A DNA stretch of 41,279 nt from a bacterium. GTDB lineage: Bacteria; T1Sed10-126. Location of the stretch: contig PWHN01000018.1 of the NCBI GenBank assembly GCA_003554945.1, positions 1 through 41,279 on the forward strand, written 5' to 3'. Below the pieces are notes generated by a model. The model saw only the letters and a program-made list of their open reading frames with translations, had not been told where the DNA came from and did no database searches. Shown here in pieces: positions 1,664-12,277 of the stretch. Position 1 is the stretch's first letter, and each line of letters starts with the position of its first letter. Made by a program: the position numbers and the translations under genes.

Positions 1664-1757
1664 TGTTATGCCGGCCCTGCAGGCCTCAAAAAAAATCAAG
1701 CCCATTAACCCAGGGTTTACACCCTGGGCTGGTAATATGACGGCCTTTCAGGCCTTA
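1664..1757. repeat. REP-like composite palindromic element
   Basis: A central perfect palindrome-type hairpin (CCCAGGGTTTACACCCTGGG) is flanked on each side by a related half-palindrome: ATGCCGGCCCTGCAGGCCTC at 1669-1687 and ATGACGGCCTTTCAGGCCTT at 1737-1756. The alternating ATGnCGGCC...GGCC units and the CCCAGGG core resemble intergenic palindromic repeats seen in many environmental bacterial genomes. No coding capacity. Only one copy is present in this window, so repetition across the genome is inferred. Confidence 0.55.
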
Positions 1758-6644: not shown

Positions 6645-6847
6645 TCCAATTTTCAGGGGGGGAAGCTTTTTCGAGCAGGAGTGGGGTGTAACGTCTCGAA
6701 TTTATTCCGGTGGACGTTTCTGGCAAGGGGTTAAGAAATCAGAGAACATTTTGATATACTGTTAAAGTAGAACAATTTCCCCCCTAAAAATCTCCGGATG
6801 AAGTCTGCTGATGGACTCATTATCTACGGATATTTGGGGGGAAACCA

Positions 6848-6866
6848 AGAGGAGGGAATTATCATT
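6848..6866 (+). promoter_or_regulatory. Strong RBS preceding ATT codon (HEAT gene start)
   Basis: AGAGGAGGG at 6848-6856 is followed after 7 bases by the in-frame codon ATT at 6864. The upstream ATG at 6798 has no Shine-Dalgarno site and would add a non-conserved-looking leader. The site therefore argues for ATT initiation. Confidence 0.4.
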
Positions 6867-7694
6867 GTAGCAAAAGAAGACGACACCCTGGAAAAGTTGG
6901 AGACTATTGGCTTGCATCCGTTTACAACACCATTTGACCCGATTGAAACGGTGATTGAAGGACTGTTTCACGTAGAAAATAAAATACGGGAGAGAGCCCT
7001 TGAACTGGCCGGGGTATTTAAAGCGCCTGAATTCATTGAGCCGCTGTTTCACCTGGCGGCGGGCGATACTGAGTTAGAGATAAGAGAGAGGGCGCTGGAA
7101 GCGCTAGGGCAGTTCATACACGAGGGAAAAATAAGTGACTTTCACCGGACGGACGACGGTTCCGAGGAAAAAGAGGATACAGGACGCACAAATAAAAACC
7201 AATTTCTGGCAATAAAAGAATTTATGCTGCGTTCAGCCGAAGCTGGCGACTGGCCGTCCGAACTACGAGTAAAAGCGTTAGTAGTGCTGGCGTCAGTAGA
7301 AGCGGAGGAAGCAAAGCGCTTAATTGATAAATTTTATTGCAGTGAGGACAACGTATTGACTGCCGGTGCAGTTGAAGCAATTTCCAGGCTTAGTGACGGC
7401 GACTGGCAGCAGATAGTCCTAAAGGAACTAAGCAGTTCATACGGTCCGGCAAGAAAAAGGGCGGCGGTGAACGCTGCGGGGTTACACGGGATAACCGAGG
7501 CTGGTCCTGAACTGATCAGATTATTAGAAAACTCAGATGATGAGGTTCTTAGACGTGCGGCGGCCGAAGCGATCGGACGGCTAAACTGGCCAGAAGGAGT
7601 AGAGCATTTAAAAAAATTCCAGGATGACAGAGACGATAAGGTGCAGAAGAAAGTGACGGAGAGTCTTGTGCGTATGGCCGGTGTGGAAGAGTAG
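6864..7694 (+). CDS. HEAT-repeat protein
   Basis: About 276 residues (298 if read from the ATG at 6798). Repeated helical pairs of about 30-40 residues carry HEAT/PBS-lyase-type signatures: IRERALELAGVF, IRERALEALGQF, LRVKALVVLASV, ARKRAAVNAAGLHG and VLRRAAAEAIGRL. Such solenoids mediate protein-protein binding; no enzymatic motif is seen. No signal peptide, so probably cytoplasmic. The ribosome-site argument for an ATT start at 6864 is given separately. It is the only plus-strand gene in the window. It is divergent from the OmpA-cyclase operon and convergent with the Mrp operon, with only 12 bases between the two stop codons, so mutual transcriptional interference is possible. Partner unknown. 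Confidence 0.8.
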   Translation: MVAKEDDTLEKLETIGLHPFTTPFDPIETVIEGLFHVENKIRERALELAGVFKAPEFIEPLFHLAAGDTELEIRERALEALGQFIHEGKISDFHRTDDGSEEKEDTGRTNKNQFLAIKEFMLRSAEAGDWPSELRVKALVVLASVEAEEAKRLIDKFYCSEDNVLTAGAVEAISRLSDGDWQQIVLKELSSSYGPARKRAAVNAAGLHGITEAGPELIRLLENSDDEVLRRAAAEAIGRLNWPEGVEHLKKFQDDRDDKVQKKVTESLVRMAGVEE

Positions 7695-7706: not shown

Positions 7707-8543
7707 CTAATCAGTCAAATGGCGACGACGGGACCGTTCGAGGAGAATTTTGTGAAGTTCTTCCTCATCTTCTGCCTGTTTCCACTGTTCAAGAAAATCA
7801 TCTTCGCGAACCATCGTAGCCAGCGCAGCCATTGAGCGGAGATAAAAGTGCCACTGATCCTGAGTTCCAACAAGGACAAAAATAGCGTGGACATGCGATT
7901 GTTCTTCTGAAAACCTAACCCCTTCTCTGGCGCGAACAACCAGCATTTCAAACATGTTTTGCCCCTCGACTATTACATGTGGGAAGGCCACTTCGGGGGC
8001 CAGAGCTGTGGTAGCCTCATTTTCCCGCTCAAGCAACATCCGTTCAAGTTCCCGCGGCCGCATCTTCAGTCGGGGGGCAAGCACCTTGGAAACCCGTTCA
8101 AGCAACTCTTCGTCGTCTATCGGCTCTTCGATTTCAAAGATCGGACAGGTTTCAAGGGTATGGTCAAAACGATCCTTTTTAAATTTTTCCCCTACTCGCA
8201 CGACATCGAGGAGCTCGTATTCAATCGTCCTGCCAATCAATCCTTCGGCAGTAATTCTTTCAACTCTTATCCCGGAGCTGTGGGCCCCACGTGCAATTGC
8301 ATGAGCAGCAGTAGGGGCTGATACAAAAATAAACAAAATTGTTAACAAAGACTGAGCGGCAACCGAAAACATACCGGTAAAGACTGCTATCCCGATAAGA
8401 ACCAGCGAGGAACCCATAGTCACAGCTTTAGTTGAAGACTGCAGTCGTGTGTAGACGTCAGGCAGGCGGACCAAGCCAAGACAGGAGACCAGATTAAAAA
8501 GTATGCCGATATTGATCAATATAATGCCAATGTATTCATTCAT
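7707..8543 (-). CDS. mrpG: MrpG antiporter subunit fused to PTS EIIA-like domain
   Basis: Residues 1-92 are a complete MrpG/MnhG (three membrane segments, conserved GLVRLPDVYTRLQSSTKA, then SAPTAAHAIARGA). MrpG proteins are usually about 100-120 residues long, but this one has 279. A linker is followed from about residue 140 by a domain matching PTS EIIA type 2 (fructose/mannitol and PtsN-like): ENEATTALAPEVAFPH, with the active-site His at about 190, then VHAIFVLVGTQDQWHFYLRS. The His suggests the domain can accept a phosphoryl group, or sense the PTS or nitrogen-PTS state, and so control the antiporter; this is inference. ATG 8543 overlaps the mrpF stop by 8 bases. Last gene of the Mrp operon. 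Confidence 0.88.
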   Translation of the reverse strand: MNEYIGIILINIGILFNLVSCLGLVRLPDVYTRLQSSTKAVTMGSSLVLIGIAVFTGMFSVAAQSLLTILFIFVSAPTAAHAIARGAHSSGIRVERITAEGLIGRTIEYELLDVVRVGEKFKKDRFDHTLETCPIFEIEEPIDDEELLERVSKVLAPRLKMRPRELERMLLERENEATTALAPEVAFPHVIVEGQNMFEMLVVRAREGVRFSEEQSHVHAIFVLVGTQDQWHFYLRSMAALATMVREDDFLEQWKQAEDEEELHKILLERSRRRHLTD

Positions 8544-8802
8544 CAAACTCTTTGCCCTCCAATTTTTTAGCCAGGGCGATACTACCTATAAAACTAAGTA
8601 ACGCCCAGGCGAGCGCCACTGACATGTAAAAATCCTCACGAGTAATTACCGTTAACATAGCGCAGACATTGACCAGAATAAAACCAAGGATATCAATCGC
8701 AACGATGCGGTCGGGAGCAGTAGGTCCTTTGATAACTCGAATCAAAGCCATAAAACTGGCTACTATCAAGAAGAAAAGTGAGAAAAATATTGCGATCTCC
8801 AT
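8536..8802 (-). CDS. mrpF: Mrp antiporter subunit F
   Basis: 88 residues with three membrane segments. The hallmark stretch IRVIKGPTAPDRIVAIDIL after the first helix is typical of MrpF/MnhF (consensus r...GPt..DRivAlD). It forms part of the membrane Mrp complex, which exchanges cytoplasmic Na+ for external protons. The stop overlaps mrpG by 8 bases, and it follows mrpE after 9 bases. Normal length for the family. Confidence 0.93.
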   Translation of the reverse strand: MEIAIFFSLFFLIVASFMALIRVIKGPTAPDRIVAIDILGFILVNVCAMLTVITREDFYMSVALAWALLSFIGSIALAKKLEGKEFDE

Positions 8803-8811
8803 TTTTATCCG

Positions 8812-9330
8812 TCAACCATCCTCAAAAATACGTTTTAAAAACCACTCAAATTTGCTGGATATTTGCTGCGTGGCCACTTCTTCGTCAATACTTTTCATCG
8901 ACAGCCAGTGGACATAGAGCACCCCGTCTTCCGTCGCTTCAACGGTAAGTGTTCCCGGGGTCAGGGTGATACAGTTGGCTAAAATAGTAAGCGCTGTTTC
9001 ACTTTTTAAATCTGATTGTACCTTGACTATTCCCGGTTTAATGGGCAGGTGGGGGCTAATAACATAATACATGACCTCGAAGTTGGCTTTGGCACAGTAA
9101 AAAATAAAGACGGGGATAAACAGAATAAGATAAAAAATACGACGAGGTTGAAAAAACATTACCGGTTTTTCGCTAAAATCTGAGGCGAAAAGAAGGGAAA
9201 CTCCAAGTGAGACTACAGCACCAAGCAAGACGCTCTGATAATCCCACCCCGGCTGCGGGCCGGGAAAGACGCCCACAAAAAGACTCCAGACCAAAAAGAC
9301 AAGCAAAAAAAGCACTAACCTTTTTCTCAC
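8812..9330 (-). CDS. mrpE: Mrp antiporter subunit E
   Basis: 172 residues. Two N-terminal membrane segments, then the MrpE-specific part: FYCAKANFEVMYYVISP, KPGIVKVQSDLKSE, and LANCITLTPGTLTVE, the most conserved motif of MnhE/MrpE. The C-terminus is soluble. The GTG start overlaps the mrpD stop as GTGA, which implies translational coupling. Role: subunit of the hetero-oligomeric Na+/H+ antiporter, needed for assembly or activity in characterised Mrp systems. Confidence 0.93.
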   Translation of the reverse strand: MRKRLVLFLLVFLVWSLFVGVFPGPQPGWDYQSVLLGAVVSLGVSLLFASDFSEKPVMFFQPRRIFYLILFIPVFIFYCAKANFEVMYYVISPHLPIKPGIVKVQSDLKSETALTILANCITLTPGTLTVEATEDGVLYVHWLSMKSIDEEVATQQISSKFEWFLKRIFEDG

Positions 9331-10901
9331 TGTTCTATGCCCCCGGTTTTCCGGTCGGAGTCACCGGCATCTTTGATTATTTTCTCCCACTCATTGATTT
9401 TTTCTTCATAGGGCCGTTCTTCAAGTAAACTAACGGCAGCCGAATCAAGATAAGCGGAGCGAAGCGGGGGCAAAATTAAAAAAGAGGCACTGACAACGAG
9501 AACAACAAGGAAGATCAACGACCCTTTCATCAGGAGAGTAACCGGACGCCGGGAGACCGGCGACTGCCCCTGAAGGGCACGGCTAATATAGCGGTAAAAG
9601 ACAGGGAGAGCGCCCAGGGTAGAAAAGACCAGCAATAAAGCAATGAAAGGAAAGCCGGCAGCCCAGGTTGCAGCGATAATTATAAATTTACTTATAAAAC
9701 CAGCGAAGGGTGGAATACCGGCTGCTGATGCGGATGCAATAGCAGAGACGCACCCAACCAGTGGCAGGTCAACAAAAATTCCCTGGCCGGCGTCACAGCA
9801 GTCCACATCAACAGTATTAAATTCAGCAGAACCCAGGGCAAGAAATAGCGAAGACATAAAAAAGGCGTGATTTAGCAGATGGAACAGACCGCCGACCAGC
9901 AACCAGATAGAAAGATTTAAGCTCTCCCCGCTACTGTAAACAATACCGCCAAGACCGACGGCCAGAAGCACGTAACCAACCTGGGAGATACTCTGATAGG
10001 AAAGAACACGACGAGGACGATCAGTTTTAGCTGAATAATATAGACCCAAAAATACGGAACAGAGACCGAGAAAAACCATGAGCCAGCAGAGCAGAGCGAC
10101 AACACCAAAGGCAGTAAAAACGGTTCGAGACATAGCATAAATACCAACAATAACTACCAGGGCAGAAGACATCATGGCAGAGACGCTGGCCGGCGCAGCG
10201 GAGAAAGCGTCAGGCTGCCAGACGTGCAGAGGAGCCTGAGCCGATTTATAGCCAAAACCAAGGACCAGTAAGAAACCTGCAAAGAAAGCCGGCGAACCAA
10301 TAAAAACCGGTTCAGTGAAATTTGAAAACCGGGCGGCAAGTTGAGCTATGTTGACAGTGCCCGTGATTGAATAGACAACAGCTATGCCGAGCAGAGTAAA
10401 GGCTGAGGCGACAGCACCAAGAACAGCATATTTAAGGGCAGCTTTTAACTCGTGCGGTGCACAGCCAAAGCCAACAAGAATATAAGAGGCTATTACTGCG
10501 ATTTCAACGTATACGTAGCGATTAAAAATATCGCCGCTTAAAACGGTGCCGTTCAGTCCCGCCCACAAAAGCAGAAAAAGAGCGTAAAAACGAATCCGGC
10601 TGGTGTATAGATCCATGTAAGATGCGGAATAAACAGAAACTGCAAAGCCAACGAGAGCAATCATCAGGAGCAACAAACGGCTCAGTCCGTCAAGAGAAAA
10701 ATTAATACCGAGGGGAAATATCCAGCCGCCTATTTCATAATAACCGGTGCCGGGAAGTAGAAGTATCGACGACAACAGAATAGAAATTGCTACGAGAACG
10801 AAAAAGAAGCTGGAAAATTTCAAAAAGCGGCCGGGCAGCAGGGCCAGTAAAAATCCACCGCCCAGGGGAAGGGCTACAACCAGCGGCAGCAGAAAATTCA
10901 T
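9327..10901 (-). CDS. mrpD: Mrp antiporter subunit D (ND2/4/5-like)
   Basis: 524 residues with about 14 membrane segments. It carries the proton-conducting antiporter fold shared with complex I subunits: a Lys/His-rich transport path with the conserved segments YVYVEIAVIASYILVGFG, YKSAQAPLHVWQPDAFSAAP and LLNHAFFMSSLFLALG. Length is near that of MrpD (about 490). It is the only ND2/4/5-type subunit seen in this operon, since no full MrpA is present. ATGA overlaps join it to mrpC upstream and mrpE downstream. It is expected to be one of the ion-translocating units in the cytoplasmic membrane. Confidence 0.93.
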   Translation of the reverse strand: MNFLLPLVVALPLGGGFLLALLPGRFLKFSSFFFVLVAISILLSSILLLPGTGYYEIGGWIFPLGINFSLDGLSRLLLLMIALVGFAVSVYSASYMDLYTSRIRFYALFLLLWAGLNGTVLSGDIFNRYVYVEIAVIASYILVGFGCAPHELKAALKYAVLGAVASAFTLLGIAVVYSITGTVNIAQLAARFSNFTEPVFIGSPAFFAGFLLVLGFGYKSAQAPLHVWQPDAFSAAPASVSAMMSSALVVIVGIYAMSRTVFTAFGVVALLCWLMVFLGLCSVFLGLYYSAKTDRPRRVLSYQSISQVGYVLLAVGLGGIVYSSGESLNLSIWLLVGGLFHLLNHAFFMSSLFLALGSAEFNTVDVDCCDAGQGIFVDLPLVGCVSAIASASAAGIPPFAGFISKFIIIAATWAAGFPFIALLLVFSTLGALPVFYRYISRALQGQSPVSRRPVTLLMKGSLIFLVVLVVSASFLILPPLRSAYLDSAAVSLLEERPYEEKINEWEKIIKDAGDSDRKTGGIEQ

Positions 10902-11263
10902 TCTTCGTCACTCTCCCTGGCAAAAAATATCTTATTGATATCATAAGTTCCATAGACATGGTGCAGTCGCAGTGAGATAACGACAAGCAGTGCGGTAAGA
11001 CTGACGCCTATAACGATAGAAGTTAAAACCATCGCCTGAGGCAGGGGGTCAACGGCCTGATCAGCAAATTCAGAAATTTCCGCCATACGAGCCGTAAAAA
11101 TTGGAGCAATTCCACCACTTCTATATCCGACGAGAATTAAAAAGAGATTGACAGCTGACTCGATAATCGAAATAGAAATAATAATCTTGATCAAATTCTT
11201 TCTTGTGAAAATACCAAATACCCCCACGAGAAGAAGAACCAGGGCTAAAATATAAGGCAGCAT
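10898..11263 (-). CDS. mrpC: Mrp antiporter subunit C (NuoK-like)
   Basis: 121 residues, three membrane segments. NuoK-like signatures are FGIFTRKNLIKIIISISIIE, with the buried Glu in helix 2, then AVNLFLILVGY and LPQAMVLTSIVIGVSLTAL. This matches MrpC/MnhC, which typically has 110-130 residues. The start overlaps the previous stop as TAATG. Together with MrpD it forms the complex I-like core of the antiporter. Confidence 0.93.
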   Translation of the reverse strand: MLPYILALVLLLVGVFGIFTRKNLIKIIISISIIESAVNLFLILVGYRSGGIAPIFTARMAEISEFADQAVDPLPQAMVLTSIVIGVSLTALLVVISLRLHHVYGTYDINKIFFARESDEE

Positions 11264-11739
11264 TATTTTTCCTCCAGGGATGAAAAGCCAACTTCACCTT
11301 CGCCAGATATGCGCAAAACACTGAGAAAGTAGAGAACAAGAAAAATTGAGCCGGCCACTTTCATGGCTATAGCCACGTTATTGATGATAATTGTGCCACC
11401 GCTGAACCACTCAAGAGGCTGTCCCGGCAGAAATTCCTGGATAAAATTAGCGAAGAAGACCCCGGAAACTCCAATCCCGGCGAGCCCAACCCCAAGAAAT
11501 AAAAGAGCCCCCAGGGCATCCAGCTCTTTTGCCACAGCATAAGGAATTTTGGAGAGCGCAGCCGGTTCGCCGCGGGCAAGCAAAATAAGAATAAAAGCAG
11601 CGGCGACCACTACCCCGCCAGGGAAACCGCCACCGGGAGAAAGATGGCCATAAAGGGCAAGATAAACCCCATATAGAAAAATAAAGGGAGCCATCCAGCG
11701 GGAAACCCTTTTGATTATTAAACTCCGATTATCCTCCAT
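11263..11739 (-). CDS. mrpB: Mrp antiporter subunit B (MnhB domain)
   Basis: 158 residues with four membrane segments and the MnhB signature ALYGHLSPGGGFPGGVVVAA. The C-terminal portion contains GGTIIINNVAIAMKVAGSIF, also diagnostic of the domain. In Bacillus-type systems MrpB is a separate small gene, as here. The start overlaps the upstream gene's stop by 11 bases, so the operon is tightly coupled. Confidence 0.93.
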   Translation of the reverse strand: MEDNRSLIIKRVSRWMAPFIFLYGVYLALYGHLSPGGGFPGGVVVAAAFILILLARGEPAALSKIPYAVAKELDALGALLFLGVGLAGIGVSGVFFANFIQEFLPGQPLEWFSGGTIIINNVAIAMKVAGSIFLVLYFLSVLRISGEGEVGFSSLEEK

Positions 11740-12277
11740 CCAACTGTTTCCTCCCTCGCATACGCAAAAGTGTCAATGCTCCAAGCACAGCGGTAAAAAT
11801 TACCGTAGCTTCACCGAGAGTATCGTAAATTCTGAAGTCAAGCAGAACGCTCATCACCTGGTTGGCGGAGCCGGTGAGATCCAGACCGCGCAATAAATAA
11901 TATATTGAAGGGGCGTCCTCAAACCTTTCCATAACAGGGGTCCCGAATTGTGGCATTTCAGCAAAGGAAAAGAAAACAAAAGTTGTAAGAAAAAGAACAG
12001 CGAGAAGTGCCAGAAAATAAGGTAGATAGCGCTGACGACCTTCGGTTTTAATCGAGCCAACGACCATAGTTGCCCGAATCAGGAGGACAAGGGTAATAAC
12101 TTCAACGACGACCTGGGTAATCGCCAGGTCGGGAGCCCGTAGAAGCAAGAAAGTACCGCTGCTGCCAAAACCGACCGCTCCCAGAGCAATAACGGCCGAG
12201 AGAAGCTCCTCAGTATAAAGAGCAACGACGGCGGCAATTATCATGAAACAGATGACTAATAATATTAAAATTTCCAG
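11729..12277 (-). CDS. MbhD/MbhE-like subunit (MrpA C-terminal equivalent)
   Basis: About 182 residues. The N-terminal half (EELLSAVIALGAVGFGSS, then RAPDLAITQVVVEVI) is the MbhD/DUF4040 domain. The C-terminal half (ANQVMSVLLDFRIYDTLGEA) is the MbhE-like part. In classical Mrp systems these two pieces form the C-terminal end of MrpA, so here they stand alone without the ND5-like portion, as in membrane-bound hydrogenase-type Mrp modules. The frame stays open above the ATG at 12244, and an extra hydrophobic segment (LEILILLVICFMI) begins at CTG 12277. A GGAGGAGGAC site lies about 8 bases upstream, so CTG initiation is likely. It follows the small lipoprotein gene after only two bases. Confidence 0.85.
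   Translation of the reverse strand: MEILILLVICFMIIAAVVALYTEELLSAVIALGAVGFGSSGTFLLLRAPDLAITQVVVEVITLVLLIRATMVVGSIKTEGRQRYLPYFLALLAVLFLTTFVFFSFAEMPQFGTPVMERFEDAPSIYYLLRGLDLTGSANQVMSVLLDFRIYDTLGEATVIFTAVLGALTLLRMRGRKQLDGG

Follow-up and report, generated by a model that had tools for sequence, protein, structure and literature searches.

A PtsN-like EIIA domain fused to the antiporter subunit MrpG in an uncultured bacterium, and a possible phospho-switch on an Mrp complex

The fusion gene and its operon

The window, i.e. the whole stretch of DNA analysed (41,279 nucleotides), stems from an uncultured bacterium and harbors an mrp operon with the order MrpA(C)-B-C-D-E-F-G, which is closed by a gene encoding MrpG joined to an EIIA domain and adjoined by mrpF (Table 1). 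Aligned with solved MrpA chains, the first gene of the operon is restricted to residues ~641-818; in contrast to canonical group 1 or 2 Mrp, the window's mrp operon has no NuoL-like N-terminal MrpA part, while the equivalent of the essential MrpA residue Glu687, as read from the alignment, is kept. With respect to the missing NuoL-like half of MrpA, the operon resembles the membrane module of MBH; the subunits B, C, D, E, F and G as well as the C-terminal MrpA module of Mrp and MBH complexes are also present in the window. The C-terminal MrpA part likewise starts the fusion operons of two further loci (L160 and L159). In addition, the window genome encodes a second MrpG devoid of EIIA (locus L041, G000:C104:78000-92000), accompanied by a homologue of the Complex1_49kDa/NiFe-hydrogenase large subunit and a ferredoxin-like protein, so that this locus resembles an MBH-type complex. 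A gene for a HEAT-repeat protein (6798-7694, plus strand) converges on the fusion gene, and a similar gene occupies the same place in a sister genome. Elsewhere in the window, positions 1709-1755 (plus strand) match the Acido-Lenti-1 RNA (RF01687) at 45.9 bits, the gathering score being 37. A 16S rRNA match was not obtained for the window genome.

The fusion gene constitutes a single uninterrupted reading frame free of stops. Its product matches PhaG_MnhG_YufB (PF03334) at aa 9-88 (E=1.9e-22; 79.7 bits, gathering score 23.4) and PTS_EIIA_2 (PF00359) at aa 143-269 (E=1e-20; 74.6 bits, gathering score 27), which bears out an earlier sequence-only reading of the locus that had claimed a complete MrpG at the N-terminus and an EIIA type-2 domain at the C-terminus. 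Moreover, the MrpG part passes TIGR01300 with 82.9 bits (cut-off 63.1), while the protein fails the PtsN equivalog model TIGR01419 with 36.5 bits (cut-off 138.7). All tests made thus identify the fusion as an MrpG, while profile and predicted fold identify its C-terminal domain as an EIIA_2; the latter is predicted to work like PtsN, yet is not classed as a PtsN equivalog by the NCBI cut-off.

An AlphaFold model, built from an alignment of 42 rows, predicts three transmembrane helices in the MrpG part (2-26, 31-56 and 61-89) with moderate to low confidence. Positive charges are located between or near helices 1 and 2 (R26, R33, K39) as well as at and beyond the end of helix 3 (R85, R93), with none between helices 2 and 3, a pattern that fits a putative cytoplasmic C-terminus. 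The solved MrpG chains (6z16, 7qru) and the MBH module (6u8y, 6cfw) share a complete MrpG and the hinge proline with the fusion. In contrast to the 278-aa fusion, however, the solved MrpG chains comprise 119-133 aa and are therefore too short for an added domain of EIIA size. In A. flavithermus MrpG, the hinge proline Pro86 is invariant and essential for activity, and bends TMH3 at the cytoplasmic ferredoxin-fold domain of MrpE (PMC7419157, eLife 59407); the authors of the structure suggested gating at this contact of MrpG TMH3 and MrpE (PMC7419157). The cassette, consisting of linker and EIIA domain, starts ~15 residues past the equivalent proline of the fusion.

Table 1. Features of the mrp operon and the fusion gene in the window
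Feature	Position	Strand	Basis
mrpG-EIIA fusion gene	7707..8543	-	ATG at 8543, stop codon 7707-7709, 278 aa
MrpG part, aa 1-91	8271..8543	-	PF03334; AlphaFold helices; homologous to MrpG/MbhC of 6u8y, 6z16, 7qru
Linker, aa 92-120 (VERIT...EL)	8184..8270	-	conserved with APC-permease cassettes; low structural confidence
PtsN-like EIIA type-2 domain, aa 121-278	7710..8183	-	PF00359; pLDDT; 1a6j best fold match
Pro77, equivalent of the TMH3 hinge proline	8313..8315	-	aligns with Pro86 of A. flavithermus MrpG
Arg173, equivalent of PtsN Arg57	8025..8027	-	invariant in 84/84 aligned cassettes
His189, equivalent of phosphoacceptor His73 of E. coli PtsN	7977..7979	-	alignment
Tyr234, at the position of PtsN His120	7842..7844	-	alignment; Tyr in window and sister copies
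mrpF	8536..8802	-	PF04066
mrpE	8812..9330	-	PF01899
mrpD, sole large antiporter subunit found in the operon	9327..10901	-	PF00361
mrpC	10898..11263	-	PF00420
mrpB	11263..11739	-	PF04039
C-terminal MrpA module only (MbhD+MbhE-like)	11729..12244	-	Pfam and alignment to solved MrpA chains

Recurrence of the fusion and relatives of the cassette

The fusion recurs at 76% identity in a sister genome of the same phylum (GenBank PWOD01000095.1, isolate CSSed10_354m) and in two planctomycetes, namely Phycisphaerae T1Sed10_97 (PWDX01000200.1; 57% identity) and G088 of the same phylum as the former (50% identity). The order of the subunits is the same in all four fusion genomes wherever the contig is long enough. 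Since the fusion resides in one frame and is conserved in the sister as well as in the two planctomycetes, it is not the result of chance or of a sequencing join. Between window and sister, the MrpG part has a pN/pS of 0.18 and the cassette one of 0.26, with dS being saturated; judged from these sequences, both parts are under purifying selection. In G088, the N-terminus of an APC permease lies directly downstream of the mrpG-EIIA gene (L159 3-443, minus strand), where it is cut by the end of the contig. The sister genome originates from soda-lake sediment: CSSed10 designates a moderate-salinity soda-lake sediment dataset of a study that sampled Cock Soda Lake, while T1Sed designates a high-salinity dataset, with Tanatar-1 being a salt-saturated soda lake of the same study (PMC6146748). 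We read CS as Cock Soda Lake and T1 as Tanatar-1.

The domain is not a one-off: across many phyla, APC permeases and antiporters of the Kef/TrkA type carry the same ~185-aa cassette, a source that the sequence-only reading had not recognised. Residues ~93-275 including the linker match the C-termini of ~610-aa proteins from unrelated genomes at about 33-43% identity, so that the homology of linker plus EIIA to transporter-borne cassettes spans about 183 residues. The ~610-aa carriers tested are APC amino-acid permeases according to Pfam. These proteins, e.g. that of the Gemmatimonadota genome CP070758 (L059), have the linker and the EIIA cassette in common with the window fusion, though the cassette is borne by a ~430-aa amino-acid permease rather than by MrpG. 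Kef/CPA2 proteins with Na_H_Exchanger, TrkA and EIIA domains (L050, L114; Pfam) likewise combine a monovalent cation/proton antiporter with a C-terminal EIIA_2, but unlike the Mrp subunit fusion they consist of a single polypeptide with the TrkA domain in between. A further locus (L106) shows TrkA plus EIIA in the frame read (Pfam).

While a search of contigs with the single window protein gave no match, relatives were found with the cassette alignment as query, and a scan of the genomes of 84,980 species confirmed 395 of them. The best 79 of these 395 loci, which are distributed over many candidate phyla, comprise two MrpG fusions and two TrkA-type proteins, the rest being APC-type as called from the available upstream sequence, of which L102 has almost none. 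The MrpG-fused copies, four of the 84 cassettes in a tree, group in a single clade (100/100) that lies among the copies from APC permeases; the deeper branches of this tree are weakly supported and its outgroup has long end branches. The APC permease gene next to the fusion in G088 suggests that mrpG may have become joined to the 3' portion of an APC-EIIA gene located nearby.

The EIIA active site and its phosphate supply

For aa 121-276, the model attains block-mean pLDDT values of mostly 90-98 and yields the structure prediction that the sequence-only reading had called for, a confident PtsN-like fold. Because the linker (aa 91-119) is uncertain and poorly modelled, a contact of EIIA with Mrp is not seen. 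Foldseek against the PDB returned PtsN/EIIANtr first (1a6j, E. coli; E 5e-10, target TM 0.82), followed by the mannitol EIIA; cytoplasmic domains from SLC4 anion exchangers (band 3/AE2) were retrieved as well, with E values of about 2e-5 to 4e-4. A profile of the cassette matched PtsN among PDB sequences at E=1.8e-21. The domain is closest to PtsN, not SLC4, in both sequence and structure. Hence, the EIIA assignment stands insofar as the domain is a real EIIA_2, but its nearest relative is the regulatory PtsN/EIIANtr and not a sugar EIIA.

E. coli PtsN (1a6j) and the fusion domain share the EIIA type-2 fold and the equivalents of Arg57 and His73. The active-site histidine, which had been placed at about residue 190, is His189 and is invariant among the 84 aligned cassettes. 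Since the histidine count from the genome scan is biased by a search pattern that contained PH, conservation was recounted on copies found without it, and His189 is kept in every copy retrieved by whole-protein search without the PH pattern. At the position of Arg173, one divergent copy carries Ser. The second active-site residue differs: PtsN has His120, whereas the window lineage is devoid of an equivalent. Given that both planctomycete fusions and almost all of the remaining cassettes have His at this position, the loss of this residue among the fusions is specific to the window lineage. The phosphoacceptor histidine proposed earlier is confirmed. Moreover, nearly all cassettes have Val or Ile in place of the Gly that follows the active-site His in E. 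coli PtsN. The two outcomes that had been named beforehand as speaking against the fusion, a C-terminus unlike EIIA and a histidine not conserved in homologues with the same fusion, did not occur.

A search of the window genome for HPr and EI, which the sequence-only reading had recommended, revealed both, and in addition a separate EIIA, in one stretch (Pfam matches). This stretch putatively follows the order rpoN-hpf-EIIA-rapZ-yvcK-HPr-EI, in which rpoN, hpf, rapZ and yvcK are named by our own reading. No sugar permease of the PTS_EIIC family (PF02378) was found in a search for that family in three fusion genomes, the window genome included, and the EI-HPr pair therefore looks regulatory. 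EI, scored by its N-domain, and HPr are present or absent together in all 28 cassette genomes compared (both in 25, neither in 3). In a panel of 386 genomes, with cassette genomes compiled at E<=1e-20, HPr occurs in 50/52 cassette genomes versus 222/334 others (Fisher p=9e-7, with relatedness ignored and the panel genomes not being independent). The cassette genomes G030 (100% complete), G062 and G074 are devoid of EI and HPr but keep the histidine, as does G485, which is devoid of HPr; in the genera to which G030 and G485 belong, however, HPr does occur in further members.

A putative phospho-switch beside the MrpG hinge

The CPA1 antiporter YcgO of E. coli is bound at its cytoplasmic region by unphosphorylated PtsN, which inhibits K+/H+ antiport; the binding becomes weaker once PtsN is phosphorylated (PMC11808508). 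The position of hinge Pro77 near the cassette, together with this PtsN-YcgO precedent, is the reason for proposing a tethered PtsN-type switch. The proposed parallel to the PtsN control of K+ transport including YcgO (PMC11808508) lies in the action on a cation/proton antiporter; PtsN, however, is free and diffusible and acts on a CPA1 antiporter, whereas the fusion domain is a covalent part of a CPA3 (Mrp) subunit. We consider it fairly probable that the fusion tethers a PtsN-type phospho-switch to an Na+(K+)/H+ antiporter of the Mrp family, with phosphorylation, hinge contact and the effect on antiport being inferred. With the C-terminus of MrpG in the cytoplasm, HPr~P would phosphorylate His189, the phosphate being derived from PEP via EI. 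The phosphorylation state would then alter the packing of the domain on the MrpG TMH3/MrpE/MrpF region beside the hinge, and the altered packing would raise or lower antiport, so that pH and salt homeostasis would track PEP and with it the carbon, energy or nitrogen status. If PtsN-YcgO of E. coli is taken as the model, inhibition might be exerted by the unphosphorylated form, this sign being a guess. A broader proposal, held tentatively and with a confidence slightly short of even, is that the regulatory PTS of uncultured lineages may act via covalent PtsN-like cassettes on Mrp, Kef-type antiporters and amino-acid permeases, set by PEP status, the MrpG form gating the antiporter at the TMH3 hinge.

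The exchange of His120 for Tyr234 in window and sister, the replacement of Gly by Val/Ile and the few cassette genomes without EI/HPr argue against a phospho-switch. Two of these observations, the loss of the second histidine in the window lineage and the retention of His189 in genomes lacking EI or HPr, along with the retrieval of band 3/AE2 and related SLC4 cytoplasmic domains by the fold search, would fit an EIIA that, as an EIIA-like fold apparently does in SLC4 exchangers (band 3), serves as a phosphorylation-independent cytoplasmic domain for docking or dimerisation or as one responsive to pH or ions, with a histidine that is structural or pH-sensing. This is nevertheless unlikely in view of the retention of both His189 and Arg173 in essentially all copies, the strong association of the cassette with HPr, and a sequence and structure nearest to PtsN and not to SLC4.

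Less likely still is a signal in the reverse direction, where the membrane-bound EIIA would act as a sink or recruiter of HPr~P or as a competitor of free EIIA, so that the regulatory PTS would receive feedback from the ion gradient or from the state of Mrp instead of controlling Mrp. The free EIIA in the rpoN-EIIA-rapZ-HPr-EI stretch would indeed compete for the same HPr~P, but the occurrence of the cassette on three unrelated transporter families better fits a control of transport. The idea of an assembly or frameshift artefact, or of a decaying read-through without function, has become negligible: the fusion genomes are draft assemblies in many fragments, of which at least two genomes derive from metagenomes by their record titles and none is known from culture, but recurrence in four genomes at 50-76% identity with the same operon order, an intact frame and purifying selection on the cassette led us to reject it.

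E. coli offers the best-documented case of a regulatory PTS controlling ion transporters, which proceeds there via transient contacts of PtsN with the transporters. In the tethered phospho-switch favoured here, the natural fusion itself points to the antiporter subunit as the target and provides a one-protein system that links phosphorylation of one histidine to antiport and is amenable to testing; it suggests a direct coupling of a salt and pH pump to the energy or nutrient state of the cell. If true, no phospho-regulatory domain would have been reported for an Mrp complex before this one, as far as the open-licence literature shows, and the domain is placed beside a known hinge. Both halves are known, but their combination and a cassette common to three transporter families appear to be undescribed in that literature, in which no account of MrpG with EIIA, or of EIIA fused to permeases or antiporters, was found.

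A survey of 386 spread genomes yielded no MrpG-EIIA fusion beyond that of the sister genome and instead revealed another fusion, present in three genomes that belong to one family, in which MrpG is followed by a pair of CBS domains (L161 1680-2453, L162 1454-2170 and L163 1288-2004, all on the minus strand). The C-terminus of MrpG seems to have received regulatory domains on more than one occasion. The MrpG-CBS genes adjoin mrpF/E/D, and those of L162 and L163 are also located near hydrogenase-maturation-like genes.
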